From Anaerolineae bacterium (GTDB lineage: Bacteria > Chloroflexota > Anaerolineae > B4-G1 > SLSP01): DNA of 33,998 nt. Position 1 is the stretch's first letter. The number at the start of each line of letters is the position of its first letter. The notes below the pieces were generated by a model. That model saw nothing but the letters and a program-made list of their open reading frames with translations. It searched no databases and was not told where the DNA came from. The stretch is taken from NCBI GenBank assembly GCA_025454475.1, contig JALOOJ010000017.1, forward strand, positions 1 through 33,998, in the 5' to 3' direction. Positions 23,872-33,998 of this stretch are shown one piece after another. The position numbers and the translations under genes were made by a program.

Positions 23872-26124
23872 ATGACAACATCATCCCACGACGTTCCGAC
23901 ATCGATCTATCAGCAACGCATTGACGCACTTCATGCCACCAAGAAGGAGCACACAGCCCTCAAAGTTGAGCTGTATGGCCACTTCGACACCGATGACCAC
24001 GGGTACATCCCGTGGACGGAGCCGATCCCCTTTGAGGTCATCCCCAACCACCCCTCAGGCGGCTGCTTTGGTATGCAGTGTATCGGCGACAACTTCCGGC
24101 GTTGGCTGGAGGTTCACCCACTTTACATCCACCCCATGAGCTCAATGGCCGGAGCCTGGGTCTACAAGGGCATCCCCGGCTTGGGTGGGTTTGAGCTTGA
24201 GTCCGGGATGGGACGTAACCGCAAGAAACGGATCAAGTCACTGGGTGAGGGCCAGCCGAGCAGTTGGAAGCCCGAGGATCGTCCCACGCATCTCTACGAA
24301 CTGCATCGCAAGTACAACACTTACAGCCCGGGCATTGGCAACAAGAACCACTTCGGCCCCGACATGCTGATCGGGCTCGAACTGGGCTGGGGAGGCTTAT
24401 TGGCCAAGGTGCGCCGGTACCGTGCCATCAACAACCCGCCAGATGCATCGTTCTATGACGGCGAAGAGCAGCTCATCCTCGGCGTGCAGACCTGGATCAG
24501 GCGCCACGTCGACCTGGCACGTGAGATGGCTGCAGTCGAGCATGACCCGCTCACCCGTCAGAATCTGCTCGACATCGCCGAGGTCAACGAGTGGCTGATT
24601 GACGGCGCACCGCGTACGTTCCGTGAGGCGTGCCAGTTCCTGGTCTGGGCACAGTCGATCGATCGGATGTGGGCACTTGGCGGCGCGTTGGGACAACTCG
24701 ACGAGCTCCTCCGCCCATACTACGAAGCGGACATCGCTGCCGGTCGCGAGAACGACGAGTCCGTGATTTGGCATCTGTCCAGTCTGTTTTACAACGATCC
24801 GCATTACTCGCAGATCGGGGGGCAGGCGCCCGACGGGCACGATCTAACCAGCAAGATGTCCTTTCTGATTCTGGAGGCGATGCACCGCGTCCGCATCCCA
24901 ACAAACATCGCGCTGCGCATCCACGAGGATATGGACCAAAGCTTGCTCCGGCGCGCGCTGGAATACATGATCGAGGACGGAACAGGCGTCGACTTCGCGC
25001 TGTCCGGTGGACTGGATGCTGGATTCGCCAAGAACGGCTACCCCATCGGACTGGCGCGCATGCGTGCCAAGGTGGGATGCAACTGGACCGCGCTGCCTGG
25101 GTTCGAATACAGTATCCAGGATGGGACACGGCTGTGTCTGGTCACGCCCTTACTTCTCGCGCTGGATGACATCATCGCGGACAACGCTGTGCGGCGGACA
25201 ATGGATGAGCTCTGGACGCGTTATGCTGAGCACCTGAGTGTCGTGGTCGAGGCTGTCAAGATCGGCAAGGACATCCACATGGAGCGTCAGGCCGACAACT
25301 ACACGGAGATCGTGTTGAACCTCTTCTGCCACGGCCCAATCGAGCGTGGACTCGACGCTTCTGCCGGGGGGCTGGACATCATCGACCTCGCCTTCGACGC
25401 TATCGGGCTCGCCACGGTCGCGGATTCGTTCGCTGCCATCGAGCAACGTGTGGTCGTTGAGCACAGACTGAGTTGGGAAGCACTTCAGAAGCACCTGAAA
25501 GACGATTTCGCAGGTGCCGAGAACGTCCGCCTCATGCTTCATAGCGTACCCAGGTATGGGAGTGGCGGCTCGCGGGCAGATTGGTGGGCCGAGCGCATCG
25601 CCGACCTATGGACCCACCTGGTCCGCGACACACCGACACCCAAGGGACGCTATACCTGCATCCCGGGCCTATTCTCCCACGGCGGCACGAACAGCTATGG
25701 GAAGCGTCTTGGGGCTACACCGAACGGGCGGCACGCAGGCATGCCGGTATCGCACAGCGCTGACCCAGACCCGGGATTCCTTCCAGGAGGCGCTGTGGCG
25801 TTGACTGCTAAGGCGAACGCCGTGGCAGCGACCCAATCGGGCTGGGGGAACACCACTCCTCTGCAGGTAGAACTGGACGACAAGCTGGTAAAAGGCCTCG
25901 GCGGCGTTGACGCCGTGATGGCATTCGTCATGGCCCACAACCGGCAGGGGGGTACGCTCATTAACATGAACGTCGTCTCCAAGGAGCAGATCCTCGAGGC
26001 GCACGCCGATCCATCCACTCATCCCGACCTGATGATCCGTGTGACCGGCTACAGCGCCTACTTCAACTCGCTGTCGTATGAGTACCGGCAGCCAATCGTG
26101 GACCGCATTCTGGCGGAAAACTGA
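23872..26124 (+). CDS. Glycyl radical enzyme of unassigned reaction
   Basis: The protein has 750 aa, close to the usual GRE size. The C-terminal glycyl radical loop is RVTGYSAYF, with Gly726 as the radical site. Other family marks are QIGGQAPDGHDLTS (314-327), RIPTNIALRIH (341-351), an ATPNGRHAGMPVS segment (615-627) and HNRQGGTLINMNVVS (689-703). The candidate thiyl Cys403 sits in KVGCNWTALPG. In dehydratase and decarboxylase GREs this Cys is followed by x-Glu; here it is Asn-Trp. It also differs from the Cys-Cys of pyruvate formate-lyase and the CMSPG-like site of benzylsuccinate synthases. The substrate is therefore not predictable. The activase gene starts 7 nt downstream. GGAGA lies six bases before the ATG. 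An anaerobic or oxygen-protected cytoplasm is implied. Confidence 0.88.
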   Translation: MTTSSHDVPTSIYQQRIDALHATKKEHTALKVELYGHFDTDDHGYIPWTEPIPFEVIPNHPSGGCFGMQCIGDNFRRWLEVHPLYIHPMSSMAGAWVYKGIPGLGGFELESGMGRNRKKRIKSLGEGQPSSWKPEDRPTHLYELHRKYNTYSPGIGNKNHFGPDMLIGLELGWGGLLAKVRRYRAINNPPDASFYDGEEQLILGVQTWIRRHVDLAREMAAVEHDPLTRQNLLDIAEVNEWLIDGAPRTFREACQFLVWAQSIDRMWALGGALGQLDELLRPYYEADIAAGRENDESVIWHLSSLFYNDPHYSQIGGQAPDGHDLTSKMSFLILEAMHRVRIPTNIALRIHEDMDQSLLRRALEYMIEDGTGVDFALSGGLDAGFAKNGYPIGLARMRAKVGCNWTALPGFEYSIQDGTRLCLVTPLLLALDDIIADNAVRRTMDELWTRYAEHLSVVVEAVKIGKDIHMERQADNYTEIVLNLFCHGPIERGLDASAGGLDIIDLAFDAIGLATVADSFAAIEQRVVVEHRLSWEALQKHLKDDFAGAENVRLMLHSVPRYGSGGSRADWWAERIADLWTHLVRDTPTPKGRYTCIPGLFSHGGTNSYGKRLGATPNGRHAGMPVSHSADPDPGFLPGGAVALTAKANAVAATQSGWGNTTPLQVELDDKLVKGLGGVDAVMAFVMAHNRQGGTLINMNVVSKEQILEAHADPSTHPDLMIRVTGYSAYFNSLSYEYRQPIVDRILAEN

Positions 26125-26131
26125 GAACCCG

Positions 26132-27034
26132 ATGACAACGGGCACGATCACCGATATCCAGCGTTTCTCGATTCACGACGGTCCCGGAATACGGACAACG
26201 GTGTTTCTGAAAGGCTGCAATCAACGCTGTTTTTGGTGCCACAACCCCGAGACCCTCGACTCGAAGCCGCAGTTGCAGTACTTCGCCGACCGCTGCATCG
26301 GGTGTGGTGCCTGCGTTGAACGCTGCCCTCAGGGCGCCCACACGTTCGTAGAGGGAGTTCACCGTCTGGACCGCACGCGCTGCGTGGCTTGCGGAGCGTG
26401 CGCCGACACGTGCTACGCCAGGGCCCTCGTGATGGTCGGAGAGACGAAGTCCGCCGATGAAGTCGTCGACGTGATCATTCGCGACCGCGCCTTCTACGAG
26501 ACCTCGGGTGGCGGCGTTACACTATCGGGCGGCGACCCTATGCTACAACTGGAGTTCTCCGAGGCGGTCCTCGCCCGTTGTAGGGACGCAGGCATCCACA
26601 CAGCCATTGAGACCGCCGCGAACGTCCCGTGGGAACGTCTCGAGCGCATCATCGCGGTTTCCGACCTCGTGATGATGGACATCAAGCACATGGACTCGGA
26701 CCGCCATCAAGCCTTTACCGGCGTGCCCAACGAGCGCATCCTGGCGAATGCCCGGCGGCTGAGCGAGAACGGTGTGCCGCTGATCATACGCACGCCAATT
26801 GTGCCCGGCGTCAATGACGACAAGGAGAGCATCGGCGCGATCGCGGCTTTCGTGTCCGAACTGCCCGGTGAGGTGTCGTATGAGCTGCTGCGATTCCACG
26901 CGATGGCGACCGCCAAGTATGACAGCCTGGGCATGGTCTACGAAGCCGCCACAATCCAGGCTCCGACAACCGAGGATATGGCGCGGCTGACTGAAGGGGC
27001 TCGCACCTGGGGTCTTGCGGTGCGACACTCTTAG
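26132..27034 (+). CDS. Glycyl radical enzyme activating enzyme (radical SAM)
   Basis: The protein has 300 aa. IQRFSIHDGPGIRTTVFLKGC leads into the radical-SAM cluster motif C29-x3-C33-x2-C36 (CNQRCFWC). Two ferredoxin-type motifs follow: Cys55/58/61/65 and Cys84/87/90/94. This is the typical insertion of GRE activases outside the PFL type. SGGDP (132-136) is the SAM-binding GGEP-like motif with Asp for Glu. DIKHMD and TPIVPGVND lie further on. It abstracts H from the Gly726 loop of the upstream GRE using SAM. The ATG at 26132, 7 nt after the GRE stop, is chosen over a longer frame that would begin inside the GRE gene. The ribosome binding site is weak, so coupling is likely. Confidence 0.94.
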   Translation: MTTGTITDIQRFSIHDGPGIRTTVFLKGCNQRCFWCHNPETLDSKPQLQYFADRCIGCGACVERCPQGAHTFVEGVHRLDRTRCVACGACADTCYARALVMVGETKSADEVVDVIIRDRAFYETSGGGVTLSGGDPMLQLEFSEAVLARCRDAGIHTAIETAANVPWERLERIIAVSDLVMMDIKHMDSDRHQAFTGVPNERILANARRLSENGVPLIIRTPIVPGVNDDKESIGAIAAFVSELPGEVSYELLRFHAMATAKYDSLGMVYEAATIQAPTTEDMARLTEGARTWGLAVRHS

Positions 27035-27076: not shown

Positions 27077-27112
27077 TGATCGTCCTGCGCTTGAGGGAGC
27101 GCAGGACGATCA
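27077..27112. terminator. Bidirectional hairpin between convergent genes
   Basis: A perfect 14-bp stem (TGATCGTCCTGCGC/GCGCAGGACGATCA) with an 8-nt loop lies 42 nt after the activase stop. On the minus strand the stop codon of the metallophosphoesterase gene (27112-27110) is the first three bases of the stem. No long T-tract is present. Confidence 0.7.
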
Positions 27113-28264
27113 GCAGGCAGCCAAGACATCCTCCAGTAGGTCTCGCGCGAGGACGCGCGGACGCGGCTCGCCTTCGTCGTCGGGCCAGCGCACCAGGCGG
27201 ATCTCGCCGTCGGCGATCTCAATGCCGGTGATGTCCCCATCGTCGTAGCTGCAGCACCCTGTGTTGAAGTAACACGGCTTGGCGAAGGTCACGCCCTCGG
27301 ACTGTCGCTGCGCATCCTGTTCCTCGGTGCGCACCCACTCCAGCCGCGACAGCAGCAGTGCGTGCTGCTCGAGTACACCGCGGCTGGGCGATGGGTCATT
27401 CCCACGACCGCCGATCCGGGCCTCGAACTCCGCTAGCTCCAGCGCAAGCTGCGCCTCGTGAGACATCGAGCGGAAGACCGGATGGTGGGTGTGCCCTGCG
27501 ATCAGAACCAGATTCGACTGGCTCTCCGCCCAGGTGTACATGGCTCGATTCAGCTTGTGGCGCAGGTCATACTTCGTGGCCGGCGTATTGACCTGAGCCC
27601 GGGTTAACCGTTGGTAAGGACGCCACAGCCAGCGAATCACCCAGCGTGAGAGCCAGGCCCATTGGTCGCTCCGGGCATCGCCCTGGTGGCCGTGAACCAA
27701 CAGCAAGTGGCCCAGCGCGACGCCTCCCTTCTTGACCCCAAGCAGAACACCCTCGTACGCCACCAGCGGGCGGCCGCCATAGACTGGGTGCAGATAGCGC
27801 TGCACGCTGTCCTCGAACTGCCATGCATCATCGTGATTGCCCCAGACCCGCACGTAGCGATCGGCTTGATGGAACTGCGCCTCCAGCGCTAGAGTATCGC
27901 TGTACGCGTCCAGCACAACCTGGGGACGCTCCTCCCAGAGCTCCTCGGCATCGCCTAGTACGACCAGTGTGTGCCCCAGACGCAGGTAGTAGGCGAGCGC
28001 AGCCCGGTAGGCCCGCTCGGTGCGTCGGAACTCGTCCGCTGCATTCCGCGCGCCCCGGTGCAGGTCCGAAAAGATGACCACTTTGTCCCAACGACCGTTG
28101 CCGTCAGAACGGCTCTCGCCCAGGCTCAGCTCGCCAGGCAAACAGGTCGAGCTGCCCAACCTAGCGCGCCCCGCGACTGCCCCAAGCGCCCGCGCCACGC
28201 GCGCCGTGTAGCCTTGGCTTTCCGCCCGGTTTCGATTGGCTCCGACGGCCGGTGTCATGTGCAT
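27110..28264 (-). CDS. Metallophosphoesterase (calcineurin-like)
   Basis: The protein has 384 aa. Residues 61-272 hold the five metal motifs: FSDLH (Asp67, His69), VLGDAEELW (Asp105), WGNHDD (143-145), VHGHQGD (191-196) and AGHTHHPVF. Asp-Ala-Glu replaces the more usual GD-x-x-D. The first ~58 residues are basic and poorly conserved-looking, so a later start is possible. The C-terminal third contains CYFNTGCCSYDDGDITGIEI, a strand-rich tail seen in large UDP-diacylglucosamine-hydrolase-like phosphoesterases. Substrate is unknown. No convincing ribosome binding site is seen before 28264. It lies 76 nt downstream of the FHA gene on the same strand and could be the last gene of that transcript. 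Confidence 0.8.
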   Translation of the reverse strand: MHMTPAVGANRNRAESQGYTARVARALGAVAGRARLGSSTCLPGELSLGESRSDGNGRWDKVVIFSDLHRGARNAADEFRRTERAYRAALAYYLRLGHTLVVLGDAEELWEERPQVVLDAYSDTLALEAQFHQADRYVRVWGNHDDAWQFEDSVQRYLHPVYGGRPLVAYEGVLLGVKKGGVALGHLLLVHGHQGDARSDQWAWLSRWVIRWLWRPYQRLTRAQVNTPATKYDLRHKLNRAMYTWAESQSNLVLIAGHTHHPVFRSMSHEAQLALELAEFEARIGGRGNDPSPSRGVLEQHALLLSRLEWVRTEEQDAQRQSEGVTFAKPCYFNTGCCSYDDGDITGIEIADGEIRLVRWPDDEGEPRPRVLARDLLEDVLAAC

Positions 28265-28340: not shown

Positions 28341-29384
28341 TCACGACACCTGGAGAACGAGCAGCACGCGGCCTATCTTGATCTGGTCGCTGTTTGAGAG
28401 CAAGCACTTCTCACCGAACGCGAGCCGCACACCGTTGACGAATGTGCCGTTTACACTACCGAGGTCCTCGATCGCGAACTGCCCGCCCTGAACGGCCAGA
28501 CGTGCGTGTTTGCGGGAGACGCCGCCTTCATCGCCACCGTGGTCAGTCAAGTCGACATCGGGATAGATCCCGCTGATCGGGTCCTCTCGGCCTATCAGGA
28601 GCTCCAGCTTGCCCGGTGGCAGTGGAAGTAGCGCACCTGTCGCCTGAACCACAAGCCTACCGGTGACCACAGGTGCTGCCCACGGAGCCGTCGCGGGCTC
28701 CCAGGCCGGAGCTCCGACCATCACGGTGCGCCCCGGCTGGAACGGCGCCCAGTCTGCAACCGGCTCGACGGGCTCCGCCGTCGCGACGACCCCCGCCGCC
28801 GAGGCCGTTCCGACGGTCGTGATCTGGGTTTGCACCTCGTTGGGGGATCGCACTGCACCTCTGGTGACCGGCGCACCACACATATCGCAGAAAGCGCTTC
28901 CGGGCTGCAGCGACGCTCCACACTGTCCGCAGATCAGAGCCTCGACCCCGGCTGCCTCCGCGATCTCGACCGCGGCTCCAGTCACGGTTCTGACCGCCTC
29001 GACCACGGTCGGAACCGCGGTTCCGACCGCGTCGACCGGCTGAACCGTCGGGACGCCCGCGCCGTGGGTAGCAGCCGGCGCCTGCTGCGATGGAACTACC
29101 GCTGGCATGGCCACCACAGTCGCGCCGATCAGCGCTGGTACAGAGGAAGGCGTCGGCTGGGACGCTTCCCTGAGCGCAGCACCGCAATTGGTGCAGAATG
29201 GGTCTCTCGGTGACGTTTGTGCACCACAGGTTGGGCAGACACTGGAAGCTACGACAGTTCTGGACTGGACCGATGGGGGTGCCGGCGGCTGGACAACTTG
29301 GGCGCCACGAAGCGGAGAACCGCACTCATCGCAGAATGCCGCATCATCAGGTTGGCGCGCGCCGCAGTTGATACATATGGGCAT
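28341..29384 (-). CDS. Triple zinc-ribbon FHA-domain protein
   Basis: The protein has 347 aa and no membrane segment. Three zinc ribbons are visible: Cys4/7/18/21, Cys50/53/64/67 and Cys152/155/166/169, joined by Ala/Pro/Val-rich linkers. The C-terminal FHA domain (about 258-345) has all phosphothreonine-binding marks: GRE (265-267), SRKH (290-293), SVNGT (310-314) and NG (317-318). It should bind phospho-Thr peptides in the cytoplasm and may act as an adaptor. GGAGGGA supports the ATG at 29384 over a longer frame. It lies 110 nt downstream of the VWA-FHA gene, with a 13-nt tandem repeat in that gap. The target phosphoprotein is unknown. Confidence 0.9.
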   Translation of the reverse strand: MPICINCGARQPDDAAFCDECGSPLRGAQVVQPPAPPSVQSRTVVASSVCPTCGAQTSPRDPFCTNCGAALREASQPTPSSVPALIGATVVAMPAVVPSQQAPAATHGAGVPTVQPVDAVGTAVPTVVEAVRTVTGAAVEIAEAAGVEALICGQCGASLQPGSAFCDMCGAPVTRGAVRSPNEVQTQITTVGTASAAGVVATAEPVEPVADWAPFQPGRTVMVGAPAWEPATAPWAAPVVTGRLVVQATGALLPLPPGKLELLIGREDPISGIYPDVDLTDHGGDEGGVSRKHARLAVQGGQFAIEDLGSVNGTFVNGVRLAFGEKCLLSNSDQIKIGRVLLVLQVS

Positions 29385-29464
29385 TGCTTCCCTCCAAGTC
29401 GAATCTAGATCACATCCACGAGTGGAACCTCGCGGTCTTCTGTCAAGATGCGTCTGCACACGCC

Positions 29465-29490
29465 GCCGGTTCCGACCGCCGGTTCCGACC
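29465..29490. repeat. 13-bp direct repeat (two copies) upstream of the FHA gene
   Basis: GCCGGTTCCGACC occurs twice in tandem at 29465-29477 and 29478-29490, in the gap between the VWA-FHA stop and the FHA start. A related core, CGGTTCCGACC, forms half of a 22-bp palindrome inside the FHA gene at 29007-29028. Possible protein-binding site; chance in GC-rich DNA is not excluded. Confidence 0.5.
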
Positions 29491-29494
29491 GCCG

Positions 29495-31525
29495 TCACCG
29501 TCCCTTGGGCCGCCCGTTCATAGCCACCTCGGTCGTCGGGCCATCCTGCGCCTGCGTTGGCCCGAGACCCATCCGGGTCGGAGCGAAGCCCTGACCGCCG
29601 CCGCTGGAGTCGGACTGACCCGGACCGAGGATCCTTGTCGCCCCACCCAGCCTCTTGTACTGGAGCCGCGTCTGGCCCACCTCCAGGATCGCGTCGGCAG
29701 GGAGCGGGAGCCGCTGGTGCGTGGGGATCGCCGTACCGTTGAGACGCGTCCGGTTCGTACTGCCCTCATCCTGAACGTAGCACTGCTCGCCCTCCTGAAC
29801 TACAGTGAAATGCGGATTCGACACGTACTGGTCGTTCAGCGCGAAGTCGCAGAACTGCGGATCACGTCCCACCTTCACCACGTCGGCAGCCAGGCGGAAC
29901 TCGGTACCCGCGCGTGGCCCCTGAACCACGACGAGTTTGCCCCTTGCCGGGGGCAGCGCCCCACCGCCTCCAAGCCGCTGTGTGACGCCTTTGACCGCCA
30001 CGCTGGTGGACTGCACGACCTTCTTGGCGACCTGCCCTCGGGTTCGAATCAGCAGCACCGCGACGACGATCAGGCCCAATCCCAGTATACCGAAGATCGG
30101 CAGTACCCACCAAGTCTGAGCGACGCTCTCGGTCACCTCCTCGGTGACCGTCTTCGGCTCGACCTCTTGCGCCTCCCAGACAATGCGCAGATCCAACGGT
30201 TCACTCTGGATCGCCTCGTCCAGATAGGGATCAGTCGCTCTGGCGATGAGCGTATACGTCCGCGTGACGGCGTCGCTCGACATCGCCTCCAGGTCCGTGA
30301 CGTCCCACACCAGGGCATAGTCCGGCGCTGCACTCGATGTGCCGATGCGCCGTTCGTTGGCGAAGTAAGCGATCTCACCCGGCTCGCGGGGTGCTCCATC
30401 CCTGAAGGTCACTTGGGCACTTAGCGGCACAGTCGTCGTCACGAAGCTCTCCGCGTCTTTCGAGTACGGAACGGTGATGGCAGGATCCGGAGGCGCCACC
30501 AACGAAAGCCCTGGCTTCTGCAGTCGAGACGTGACCACATCTGCGTCAGACGCCGATCCACCCGGGGTGTCGAGCACGCGAATCTGAACCTGATACTCGC
30601 CCTGAGGGCGAATGACAGGAAACGTAACGCGGTAGGCTTGACGTTGGGTGACCACGTCCCGAAAGCGCTCCCGTACTTCCTCGTGTGTGTCGGGGCTGTC
30701 CACAAAGTAGGTGCCCCCGGTCTGCGCCGCCATTGCGTTAAGGCTGTCTGACTCGGTAGTCCTGCCCTGGGACGTCAGCTGAACAGCGTAGATCAGGATA
30801 TCGGCCTTGCTCGCTCGGTCGACGATCAGCGCCTCGTGCGATTCATCGCTAAAATCGCGATCGATGCCATCTGAGAACACGAAGATAACGCGCCTGCGCG
30901 TCGCCAGCTTTTCCTGGATGATCGCGTCAGGGTTGTCCGTGATCCACGAGATCGCGCGATCGATCCCTTCATAGAGAGGCGTGGTCTCGTCGACCACCTG
31001 CGTCAGCAAGCCATCGAACTCATTGCTGATGGCCACGGGGTCGTAGTCTGTGAAGTTCACAGCCGGCGTGAGTCCACCGGCATCCTGCCCGCGAATACCG
31101 ATCAGCGACACCATGTCTGCCGTTGGGCTGCCGTCGAGCGTAAGCATGCCTAGAAGTCCGTCGGCCAAGTTCACAGCGCTGCCAATGCGGGGGTCATTCT
31201 TCCGCGCGATGCCACCGCGGTCTATGACCATCGCCACGGCCAGACCCGTCGTGTCCAGCACTGTCGTCTGCGGAACATCCTCATCGGAGATGCGTACGCG
31301 GAAATTGGCATCGCCTAGGTCACCAACAACTCGCCCAGTCATTCTGTCAACCACCGACACGAGGACCGAGGCGTTAGGCGGATTCGAAAGCGAGTCCGGT
31401 CTCCCCAGGATATCCACCACCGGGGGCTCGTTTCCTTGGGCGTTGACGGGCACCGGAGCAATCGGGCCGTGGATCAGAAACACGCAGAGGCAGAGAGCAC
31501 ACAAACAGGCACGCAGCAATCTCAT
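29495..31525 (-). CDS. Extracytoplasmic VWA-domain protein with cytoplasmic FHA domain
   Basis: The protein has 676 aa. A signal peptide (1-30, ending PVNAQ) is followed by a short beta domain and a von Willebrand A domain (about 93-290) with VAMVIDRGG and VIFVFSDGIDRDF. The canonical MIDAS DxSxS is changed to D-R-G-G, so metal binding may be lost or altered. A beta-rich region leads to one transmembrane helix near 475-500 (WWVLPIFGILGLGLIVVAVLLI). The inside part has an FHA domain (KVGRDPQFCDF, VSNPHFTVV, STNRTRLNG) in which the usual SRxH and NG(T) are partly altered, then a Gly-rich tail. This could relay an external binding event to phosphoprotein partners. GGGGAGGTG lies before the ATG at 31525. 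Confidence 0.88.
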   Translation of the reverse strand: MRLLRACLCALCLCVFLIHGPIAPVPVNAQGNEPPVVDILGRPDSLSNPPNASVLVSVVDRMTGRVVGDLGDANFRVRISDEDVPQTTVLDTTGLAVAMVIDRGGIARKNDPRIGSAVNLADGLLGMLTLDGSPTADMVSLIGIRGQDAGGLTPAVNFTDYDPVAISNEFDGLLTQVVDETTPLYEGIDRAISWITDNPDAIIQEKLATRRRVIFVFSDGIDRDFSDESHEALIVDRASKADILIYAVQLTSQGRTTESDSLNAMAAQTGGTYFVDSPDTHEEVRERFRDVVTQRQAYRVTFPVIRPQGEYQVQIRVLDTPGGSASDADVVTSRLQKPGLSLVAPPDPAITVPYSKDAESFVTTTVPLSAQVTFRDGAPREPGEIAYFANERRIGTSSAAPDYALVWDVTDLEAMSSDAVTRTYTLIARATDPYLDEAIQSEPLDLRIVWEAQEVEPKTVTEEVTESVAQTWWVLPIFGILGLGLIVVAVLLIRTRGQVAKKVVQSTSVAVKGVTQRLGGGGALPPARGKLVVVQGPRAGTEFRLAADVVKVGRDPQFCDFALNDQYVSNPHFTVVQEGEQCYVQDEGSTNRTRLNGTAIPTHQRLPLPADAILEVGQTRLQYKRLGGATRILGPGQSDSSGGGQGFAPTRMGLGPTQAQDGPTTEVAMNGRPKGR

Positions 31526-31555
31526 CGCAGCACCTCCCCACTTACCTCGCACGCC

Positions 31556-33343
31556 TTACTGTCGGAGCGGTTGGCCCCCGATGCGGCCCTGCACGATAAT
31601 CACGGTGATGTTGTCCTCACCCCCAGCCTGGTTGGCGGCCGTTACCATACGATCGCAGGCCTCCTGCGGTGACACGGATGTCCTCCAGATGTCCAGCAGC
31701 CGCTCGTCTGGCACCTTTCCGCTGAGTCCATCTGAACAGAGAAGCAATGCCTCATCGCCGAGGAGCGACACCTCAAAGAGGTCGATCTCTACCTCGGGTT
31801 GATCCCCGATCGCCCGATAGATGACGTTGCGCTGCGGGTGCGCGTCGGCCTCATCACGGCCAATCTGGCCCGCGGCCACGAGGCGTTCGACCAGCGAGTG
31901 GTCCGTTGTCACCCGACGGATTCCACCAGTCCCTATATGGTAGCAGCGGCTATCTCCCACGTTCGCGATGATCGCCGTTGTGCCCACGGTCAGGGCAGCG
32001 ACCAGCGTTGTTCCCATTTCCGAGTTCGCTGAGCGACGCGCAGCATGCACGGCGCTATTTGCCTCCGCGGCCCAACGCTTGAGATAGGAGCTCAGTCCGG
32101 AGCCGTTCTGTGCGAACGCCTCCCTCGGAACTTCACGAGCCAGCTTCCCCATCGTCTGGACCACCAGGCCACTGGCGATCTCGCCCGCATCGTAGCCGCC
32201 CATGCCATCGGCAACCACATAAAGGGCTGACGGGGCGCCCACTGAGGTCCCGGCAGACGGTACAGGCCCGAGATCCAGCACCAGGTAGCTGTCTTCGTTG
32301 AGCTCCCGAACCAGACCGACGTCCGTGCAGTGCCCGATCCGCATCGGCTCTGACCGCATCTCAGTCAGAATGGACTGCAACCCGGACGCGAGGGCAGCCG
32401 CTCGCACCTCCATCGGGTGTTCAACAGTCTTGCGCAGCAACTGCACTAGCGCACCAGATGCCGCGGCATCAAATGCCGCTGCGTCGGGATGGGGCGTGTC
32501 ACCGCCCGGCAGAAGGCCGGCAAGCACACGCCCGAGGGCCTGTACATCACGGGCAAACACCTCGTGGGCCCGCGTTCGCTGCTCCGGCGGCACGATCGTG
32601 GCGTCGCCGAGGCCAACCCACAGAGCGTGCTGTCCATTGACAGCAATGTGGGCGGCATCGACGGTCCCAAGTGCAACTTGGTGCTTGTGCAAGAATGCCA
32701 TTGCCTGCGCCAAGTCCGCGCCCAGTCGCGCTACTGCAGCGACGGCACTGGCCTCTGCTTGGAGCCCGCCGGTACTGACTGCGTCGCTCTGCCCTTTCAG
32801 CGATTGGAGCAGCGGCGGCAGGAACTCCGGCATTACCCGATAGGTCCGTGGCGCTCCATAATGTACTTCCTCAAAGACAGCCGCAGGCAACAGCAGGCCG
32901 GGATGAGCAAGCTGCATACCGAGGAGTTGCCGCTCGCAGCGAACCGCACGATCGCTATCGTCTTCACTCACGAGGTAGCGCGCCAGCGTGGAGTCTGCCT
33001 TGGCAAGGTCGGCTCCGCAGTCACTGCAATATCGCTCCGCTTCGTCAGACGTGACGGCCGAACAGCCTGGGCACCGTCGCGAGGCGACGAGATCCTCCGC
33101 CAGATAGACGTTGCGGTGCTCCCCAACAGCGCGCACTTCACGCACCACGTATCTGCTTCCGAGGACCGTACCCGCCGGCAAGGCCGGAAATCCACCGTCG
33201 AGCCGCTCCGTCGCATCGTCCCGGTCACTGGCAGACGTAACCGGCAGCCCATGGCCCTGCGATGGCAGCTCCTGTGTGGTCGGTAGCGCGCGATCGTCCT
33301 TTCGCTGTCCTCTGAACCATCTGAAGCGTCCCCTCTGCGCCAT
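31556..33343 (-). CDS. Pseudokinase-zinc ribbon-PP2C phosphatase fusion
   Basis: The protein has 595 aa. Residues ~58-325 resemble a Ser/Thr kinase in layout (VLGSRYVVREVRAVGEHRNVYLAED at the N-lobe) but lack catalytic marks: no VAIK Lys is apparent, the HRD position reads LGTVDAAHI and the DFG position GLGDATI. A zinc ribbon (Cys91/94/106/109) is inserted in the N-lobe. The C-terminal PP2C domain is intact: GLVRELNEDSYLV (Asp351), VVADGMGGYDAG (Asp379), GTTLVAALT, ANVGDSRCY, LLCSDGLSG and GGEDNITVII. It should remove phosphate from Ser/Thr using Mn/Mg in the cytoplasm. The ATG at 33343 lies 5 nt after the previous stop, with AAAGGCGG upstream, so it is coupled; a GTG at 33367 is the alternative. 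Confidence 0.92.
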   Translation of the reverse strand: MAQRGRFRWFRGQRKDDRALPTTQELPSQGHGLPVTSASDRDDATERLDGGFPALPAGTVLGSRYVVREVRAVGEHRNVYLAEDLVASRRCPGCSAVTSDEAERYCSDCGADLAKADSTLARYLVSEDDSDRAVRCERQLLGMQLAHPGLLLPAAVFEEVHYGAPRTYRVMPEFLPPLLQSLKGQSDAVSTGGLQAEASAVAAVARLGADLAQAMAFLHKHQVALGTVDAAHIAVNGQHALWVGLGDATIVPPEQRTRAHEVFARDVQALGRVLAGLLPGGDTPHPDAAAFDAAASGALVQLLRKTVEHPMEVRAAALASGLQSILTEMRSEPMRIGHCTDVGLVRELNEDSYLVLDLGPVPSAGTSVGAPSALYVVADGMGGYDAGEIASGLVVQTMGKLAREVPREAFAQNGSGLSSYLKRWAAEANSAVHAARRSANSEMGTTLVAALTVGTTAIIANVGDSRCYHIGTGGIRRVTTDHSLVERLVAAGQIGRDEADAHPQRNVIYRAIGDQPEVEIDLFEVSLLGDEALLLCSDGLSGKVPDERLLDIWRTSVSPQEACDRMVTAANQAGGEDNITVIIVQGRIGGQPLRQ

Positions 33344-33348
33344 CTGAT

Positions 33349-33998
33349 TCAGACCGCCTTTCCACACTCAGTACAGAACCTGCCATCGGGCGGCAACGCC
33401 GCGCCACACGCCTCGCAGTATCCGGCTTGGGGTTCCATAGCGAGCGGCGCACCACAGGTAGCACAGAACCTTGCGCCCGCTCGGACCTCCGCATTGCAGG
33501 AAGGGCATCGTGACGGCGGTGCAAGCCGCGGTGGGTCCACATCGACGCCTGCCGCGTCTGGGCGTTGCGGCGAGTCCGGTGACGACAGCCAGATCTGCGT
33601 TGCGCCGAGGGACGCAGCCGGAGTTACGGGTGGACTTGCCCGGTCCTGACCGGCAAAACGGTGCTGACCAGCGTCGACGGCCGCAGACGGGGGTGGGAGA
33701 CGCACAGGGGCTGACGGACGTGCTGACGACCTCACAGGTGGCCGTTGGTACCCCTTCTTGGACCGCCGATCCGCGATCAGCAACACGCCGCCCACGATCA
33801 CCAGTGCCCCACCCCCAAGACCAAAGCCCCCCACGACCACAAGCGCCAAGATCAGCGTGCCCAGGTTGCTGCCGCCTTCGTCAGGAGCCTCAGGTGTGAC
33901 GAAGGCTACCGGCGTGGGCGCCACCAGCGGGCGAGGCGTGGACGTTGCTAGTTCCGGGACACCGGCGATGCCGGGAGTTGGAGTCGGCAGACCGATGA
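33349..33998 (-). CDS. Membrane protein with Pro/Thr linker and two zinc ribbons, 3' part (runs off right edge)
   Basis: The frame is open through the right edge, giving at least 215 codons; the true start lies beyond the window. From N to C it shows a Thr/Pro-rich, probably extracytoplasmic linker (PTPTPG...TSTPRP), one transmembrane helix (LGTLILALVVVGGFGLGGGALVIVGGVLLIA, in part), a basic Pro/Ser-rich cytoplasmic stretch and two C-terminal zinc ribbons (CPSC...CATC and CEAC...CTEC). The missing N-terminal part could be a sensor domain. The stop is 5 nt from the PP2C gene start, so the two are co-translated. The ribbons resemble those of the PP2C and FHA proteins downstream, which suggests a shared partner or surface. 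Function unknown. Confidence 0.75.
   Translation of the reverse strand, partial: IGLPTPTPGIAGVPELATSTPRPLVAPTPVAFVTPEAPDEGGSNLGTLILALVVVGGFGLGGGALVIVGGVLLIADRRSKKGYQRPPVRSSARPSAPVRLPPPSAAVDAGQHRFAGQDRASPPVTPAASLGATQIWLSSPDSPQRPDAAGVDVDPPRLAPPSRCPSCNAEVRAGARFCATCGAPLAMEPQAGYCEACGAALPPDGRFCTECGKAV

Follow-up and report, generated by a model that had tools for sequence, protein, structure and literature searches.

A minus-strand gene cluster and its continuation on a second contig

The window analyzed here is a stretch of 33,998 nucleotides that makes up the entire contig C369 (JALOOJ010000017.1) of an Anaerolineae bacterium of the phylum Chloroflexota. At 28341-33998 it carries four minus-strand genes ending at the contig edge, which encode the C-terminal part of a membrane-anchored subtilase (S8), a zinc-ribbon pseudokinase fused to a PP2C phosphatase (PK-PP2C), a protein composed of a VWA domain, a transmembrane (TM) helix and an FHA domain (VWA-TM-FHA, or VWA-FHA) and a zinc-ribbon FHA protein (ZnR-FHA). 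A sequence-only reading had described four same-strand genes with two FHA domains, one VWA domain and one PP2C phosphatase, and had placed zinc ribbons in three of the four. Domain searches confirmed this layout and returned two ribbons in the first gene, one in the second and three in the fourth.

The first gene (33349..33998, minus strand; frame 33349-33996, open at the contig end) encodes a Thr/Pro linker, a TM helix and two cytoplasmic zinc ribbons (Zn_Ribbon_1/DZR) and has orthologs at L055 and L057. It had been taken for a zinc-ribbon sensor; the TM helix and the ribbons are indeed present, but the protein is the tail of an extracytoplasmic subtilase instead. The PK-PP2C gene follows (31556..33343, minus strand; PP2C E-value 1.8e-14), with its zinc ribbon encoded at 33017..33073 in the N-lobe of the pseudokinase (C99, C102, C114 and C117, numbered from the GTG at 33367; all four invariant in 19-20 sequences). 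A frameshift at 33349-33367 splitting the zinc ribbon from the PP2C was considered and is unnecessary: an ATG at 33343 comes directly after the upstream stop, and the subtilase ribbons are found in genomes G002 and G003 too. The VWA-TM-FHA gene (29495..31552, minus strand; FHA E-value 1.9e-11; acidobact_VWFA E-value 2.3e-8; weak match to VWA_2) may alternatively start at the ATG at 31525. The ZnR-FHA gene (28341..29384, minus strand; three Zn_Ribbon_1 matches; FHA E-value 1.2e-14) has an ArnA-like layout, and its ATG at 29384 was preferred over the start of the longest open reading frame at 29498 because a GGAGG lies upstream of 29384.

Since the window is a whole contig, no intact kinase was visible in it, as the sequence-only reading had stated. 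The window closes with 99 bases that recur, without a mismatch, at the start of contig C359 and nowhere else in the genome. Contigs C224 and C295 of this genome share an overlap of precisely the same length, which therefore looks like the overlap length of the assembler. The subtilase reading frame is unbroken through the junction (composite of 848 amino acids, 813 from the likely ATG), and L057, a protein from the same genus, extends across it. Judged from the sequence, the cluster appears to be the downstream end of an 11-gene island that continues on C359, on the minus strand throughout (position x of C359 corresponds to 33899+x on the window scale). The earlier suggestion to look past position 33998 for the rest of the run and for a Hanks kinase was thus borne out on the same strand.

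The kinase lies around 9 kb beyond the window end and four genes upstream of an exporter. It is a PknB-like protein of 676 amino acids (C359 8801-10831; Pkinase E-value 1.4e-42) with a TM helix and PD40 propeller repeats outside, and its GGGGMG, AVK, FRDLKPSN, DFG and APE motifs are intact, as in active Hanks kinases. The pseudokinase, considered as the working kinase of the cluster, was dropped once the contig overlap had supplied this protein. Between the kinase and the exporter are encoded a LysM/peptidase-MA-like protein with an HEMTH motif (C359 7246-8841), a zinc-ribbon TM protein (C359 6093-7136) and a TM protein with an ectodomain related to that of its zinc-ribbon neighbour (C359 5513-6091). 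The exporter itself (C359 2646-5516) combines a zinc-ribbon region with two FHA domains, ABC_tran and ABC2_membrane. It is followed by a lipoprotein with a LAGC lipobox (C359 1926-2633), homologous to the subtilase propeptide region; lipoprotein homologs in relatives match the N-terminal region of the subtilase at 36-48%. The subtilase body (C359 2-1996, L195; Peptidase_S8 E-value 1.1e-31) then runs on into the window and has intact Asp, His, Asn and Ser motifs in its C359 part (LDLG, HGTACA, NSAGN and GTSAS). The subtilase of G003 (L055 1070-3534) is found in two overlapping frames of 145 and 676 amino acids and is frameshifted or mis-sequenced.

At the other end, the last gene of the run encodes a calcineurin-like metallophosphoesterase (27110..28264, minus strand; Metallophos E-value 7.3e-9). 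Its homolog in the sister species G002 (L056) occupies the same position and is 57% identical, and the linkage of this gene to the cluster is confined to this genus. A pyruvate-formate-lyase-like glycyl radical enzyme and its radical SAM activase (23872-27034, plus strand) point toward the cluster from the opposite strand, with no sign of a link with the signalling genes.

The pseudokinase-phosphatase and the FHA proteins

The PP2C half of PK-PP2C passes the Stp1/IreP model NF033484 (Stp1_PP2C_phos; 234.2 bits, cut-off 230) and retains its metal-site motifs (RELNED 354, DGMGG 387, SDGL 545 and GGEDN 582). In the other half, the VAIK Lys, the HRD Asp and the DFG Asp are missing from the window protein and from the whole alignment of 19 full-length sequences. 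We refer to it as a pseudokinase because these catalytic motifs are absent although the fold is that of a kinase. The ribbon, C-x2-C-x11-C-x2-C with the spacing of the window protein, is invariant in the nineteen full-length homologs.

A profile of the pseudokinase region matches PknB structures (E-value 4e-6). Single-sequence structure prediction of the whole protein was useless (mean predicted local distance difference test, pLDDT, 35), and a 4-sequence model of the pseudokinase alone was modest (pLDDT 68.6, predicted template modelling score 0.64). With this model, Foldseek returned kinases, PknG first, and a second structure aligner gave only kinases among its best 50 matches, with Z-scores of 11.6-13.2 over the C-lobe. 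None of these 50 places the N-lobe with the zinc ribbon, and the aligned ranges begin at model residue 87-90. The model suggests that the pseudokinase retains the kinase C-lobe fold, with the zinc ribbon probably inserted in the N-lobe.

A first search of genome contigs with the PP2C protein found no relative. A second search with the alignment as query returned mostly PP2C-only matches and one Poribacteria protein (L067 419-2404) with an N-terminal zinc ribbon, a ribbon-inserted pseudokinase in which a residual DFQ replaces DFG, and a PP2C, with a kinase gene next to it. Because of this protein, the zinc-ribbon/pseudokinase/PP2C architecture is not limited to Chloroflexota. The source genome has a second pseudokinase-PP2C, split over the end of C224 (L051) and the start of C295 (L052); two intact TM kinases are encoded after it, and a similar pair occurs in G001 and G002. 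Another pseudokinase-PP2C neighbourhood (L045-L048, L064) contains a cyclase-AAA/TPR protein, a LysM protein (HExxH lost in L048) and a kinase-FHA fusion.

In VWA-TM-FHA, a signal sequence precedes a VWA-like domain; next come a TM helix, with basic residues after it, and an FHA domain. Owing to this topology the VWA is predicted to lie outside and the FHA inside. The metal site of the VWA is non-canonical, with DRGG in place of DxSxS, and is invariant in 11 sequences. The residues of the phosphothreonine site of its FHA (R563, S578, H581 and N600) are invariant in the alignment of this family (A2), and those of ZnR-FHA are intact. Among solved structures, the closest relatives are PknB and PknG for the pseudokinase; GarA, OdhI and ArnA (5a8i, 8s05_C) for ZnR-FHA; and ArnB (8s05 chain A, E-value 1.7e-10) for a cytosolic VWA protein that is encoded beside ZnR-FHA in several relatives. 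Such a cytosolic VWA partner was not found at the locus in the source genome. The one distant homolog there is a DnaJ-VWA fusion on contig C140 (L201 4012-5517) with a kinase gene adjoining. In most relatives, DnaJ-VWA homologs are encoded between PP2C and FHA genes. Several genera (L033, L037, L038 and L058) have a gene for a transglutaminase-like membrane protein, recognized by eye, upstream of a TM-FHA gene; in L038 it is preceded by another two genes, possibly for DUF58 and MoxR.

The tail of VWA-FHA and the linkers of ZnR-FHA contain repeated PT-V/Q/R motifs. PT[VR] and PTV motifs exceeded all 1000 shuffles, the shuffles ignoring repeat expansion and shared ancestry. Because of this enrichment, the PT-V/R threonines are candidate kinase sites, in a suggestive sense only.

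Conservation of the island in relatives

We surveyed 60 genomes, the source genome and 59 relatives, as well as 400 genomes drawn across Chloroflexota. VWA-TM-FHA was detected in 17 of the 60 genomes (source genome included), at 18 loci. A PP2C gene or the end of one lies directly upstream in 15 of these loci, and the remaining three are at a contig edge. In addition, five genomes of f6, another family of the same class, share the order [small protein]-PP2C-VWA-TM-FHA-ZnR-FHA-kinase-kinase, at around 33% identity; the PP2C protein of this family is without a zinc ribbon of this kind. All 19 assessable loci, from two diverged groups, therefore have PP2C immediately upstream of VWA-TM-FHA (one f6 genome is already among the 17). 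Since the gene order is conserved, a chance arrangement is excluded. In the phylum at large VWA-FHA is rare, with 6 of the 400 genomes having it. The phylum-wide pseudokinase profile was left out of the counts, true kinases being mixed into its matches.

Relatives usually have kinases in the vicinity of the orthologous genes. In G020 and G022, one co-directional island (at around 27-65 kb and 20-54 kb of the respective contigs) holds all modules and several more kinases. In the same-genus genome G002, two contigs carry FHA-ABC, lipoprotein, subtilase-TM-ZnR, FHA-PK-PP2C, VWA-TM-FHA, ZnR-FHA and metallophosphoesterase; the join between them is likely, not proven, because their ends share 63 exact bases and then diverge. 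When the co-occurrence of VWA-FHA and subtilase-TM-ZnR was measured over the 59 relatives, 11 had both, 5 and 5 had one of the two and 38 had neither (P-value 4e-5, Fisher test, uncorrected for relatedness).

The survey proposed by the sequence-only reading thus found a conserved set. It encountered neither scattered genes nor a known secretion locus, either of which would have spoken against that reading. The coherence claimed for the genes stood in the conserved PP2C/VWA-TM-FHA order, but their extent had been underestimated, as the system is around three times larger than described. Elsewhere in Chloroflexota (L174, L178, L175 and L111), PP2C and cytosolic VWA genes form clusters without the transmembrane VWA-FHA, and a kinase and ZnR-FHA are present in L111, L174 and L178. 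These clusters are possibly the ancestral form.

Relation to known systems and a possible mechanism

As far as the sequences tell, every part of the island comes from a known family, and no described system with this set was found. No paper describing it was found in the open-access literature, which is weak evidence of absence. The sequence-only reading had matched the genes to no named pathway, and this held when membership in the type VI pathway, PRK14559 and FhaB was tested. A link with type VI secretion was rejected: TssC/VipB (PF05943) had no match in the source genome, with a positive E. coli control, and the kinase has no periplasmic VWA. PRK14559, a cyanobacterial Ser/Thr phosphatase, likewise has zinc ribbons at the N-terminus and PP2C at the C-terminus of a single protein; the match was 118.7 bits, against a cut-off of 374, and covered the PP2C part only. 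The FHA protein reached 64 of the 125 bits of the FhaB/FipA model (NF049868).

Three described systems resemble the island in part. Like PknF-Rv1747 of Mycobacterium tuberculosis, it has a gene run in which a Hanks kinase is encoded together with an ABC exporter bearing two FHA domains, and the C359 exporter has the layout of the Rv1747 type (two FHA, one nucleotide-binding domain, an ABC2 membrane domain and a Ser/Thr kinase in the run). In Rv1747, both FHA domains are required for the interaction with PknF, and the exporter can be phosphorylated and tuned by the neighbouring kinase (PMC3908365). The exporter here differs in having two zinc ribbons in front, and PknF-Rv1747 lacks the other components, among them the protease, lipoprotein, VWA-FHA and PK-PP2C. 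With ArnA-ArnB of Sulfolobus (kinase ArnC, phosphatase PP2A), the island shares a zinc-ribbon FHA protein, a VWA partner, a kinase and a phosphatase. The ribbon of ArnA tethers unphosphorylated ArnB, and its FHA binds ArnB once phosphorylated (PMC12852372). Unlike ArnA, the FHA protein here has three ribbons rather than one; the VWA of the window lies outside the membrane in one chain with its own FHA, a PP2C takes the place of PP2A and there is no tie to archaella. We did not file the island as an ArnA-ArnB module because there is no cytosolic VWA at the locus, though relatives look closer. Finally, the type VI threonine pathway (PpkA, PppA and Fha1) also has a kinase, a PP2C, an FHA protein and a VWA domain. 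In that pathway the VWA is C-terminal in PpkA (PMC1262709), whereas here it is fused to the FHA, and the ectodomain of the kinase consists of PD40 repeats. By analogy, the island is best read as a system that would work like these three and be a member of none.

We consider it probable that the island encodes a lineage-restricted trans-envelope Ser/Thr kinase/phosphatase/FHA system of 11 genes, with the window genes as its downstream half. This reading builds on gene content, order and strand, on the domain layout, on the intact kinase, PP2C and subtilase motifs and FHA residues, and on the motifs lost from the pseudokinase. Several observations weigh against it. The subtilase module lies around 30 kb off or on another contig in other genera, where ZnR-FHA is also sometimes apart from VWA-FHA, so that the two halves may be separable systems. 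A scan for promoters and terminators gave no signal above chance, leaving transcription as one unit unproven, and the PT-motif enrichment is subject to the limits of its shuffles.

The separation seen in other genera could mean that this genus merely happens to have two modules side by side, each with its own kinase. One would be a kinase/PP2C/VWA-FHA/ZnR-FHA switch, the other a subtilase/lipoprotein/FHA-ABC module for envelope processing. The compact core of family f6 has no subtilase nearby, subtilase and VWA-FHA are on different contigs in G005, G039, G035, G027 and G045, and the genome offers 14 kinase matches to choose from. We nevertheless regard this as rather unlikely, given the co-occurrence of subtilase-TM-ZnR and VWA-FHA over the relatives, their location in the same island and on the same strand in G020 and G022, and the presence of FHA domains and zinc ribbons throughout both halves. 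The Stp1/IreP match of the PP2C, the partial match to FhaB/FipA and the LysM domain of the cluster would also fit a cell-wall or division checkpoint of the PrkC/PknB type (PknB-PstP-FhaA/FhaB), in which VWA and propeller read the status of the wall. Such a checkpoint is improbable: no PASTA repeats, rodA or pbpA were seen among the cluster proteins, the FhaB cut-off was missed, and the rarity of VWA-FHA in the phylum is unlike a housekeeping function. A biological-conflict or TerY-P-like stress system, built on a triad of kinase-zinc ribbon, PP2C and vWA, is more improbable still. Such a trio, with a standalone vWA, is reported for actinobacterial GAP1-N2 systems (PMC7159879), where the three enzyme and binder types are in neighbouring genes as they are here, and relatives have a cytosolic VWA adjoining ZnR-FHA. 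The passage on that trio mentions no FHA; the VWA here is extracytoplasmic, and no GAP1-N2 GTPase, toxin or nuclease effector or MoxR-effector pair was recognized among the island proteins scanned.

In the trans-envelope system that we favour, an outside signal would control phosphorylation. Through its outside beta-propeller, and with help from the VWA, LysM-peptidase and subtilase domains on the outside, the PknB-like kinase would sense the state of the envelope or an external ligand. It would then phosphorylate its partners on threonines of the PT-V/Q/R motifs in their disordered cytoplasmic tails. The FHA domains of VWA-TM-FHA, ZnR-FHA and the exporter may then bind these phosphosites and bring the proteins together at the membrane, the zinc ribbons acting as tethers, as in ArnA. 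Because Rv1747 is tuned by its kinase and the ArnA ribbon tethers its partner, we infer a complex that is assembled by phosphorylation and gates export, switching the FHA-ABC exporter as PknF does Rv1747. PP2C would reset the system, steered by its pseudokinase, which would bind rather than phosphorylate. The propeptide-like lipoprotein may keep the subtilase in check, and proteolysis could be input, output or both. An outside cue would thus pass through threonine phosphorylation to export across the membrane. Perhaps the exporter carries a lipid or glycolipid of the envelope; this hint is a single LmeA-like Pfam match of the zinc-ribbon TM protein, whose weakness (E-value 0.004, below cut-off) counts against it. 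Taken furthest, surface proteolysis by the lipoprotein-restrained subtilase would be coupled to a phosphothreonine switch gating the exporter, in one protease-phosphorylation-export circuit and a new envelope system, a possibility that we put forward tentatively and hold to be doubtful.

Most of what is known of Hanks kinases in bacteria comes from mycobacteria, Firmicutes and type VI loci. In Chloroflexota, one conserved island links components that face outward (kinase, VWA, protease and lipoprotein) with FHA readers on the inside, a zinc-ribbon pseudokinase-PP2C and an FHA-ABC exporter. If the proposed system is real, it would offer a bounded set of proteins for how a pseudokinase steers a PP2C phosphatase, for the role of zinc ribbons in FHA signalling and for the gating of an exporter by phosphorylation, and it would suggest that bacteria, too, have an ArnA/ArnB-like switch.

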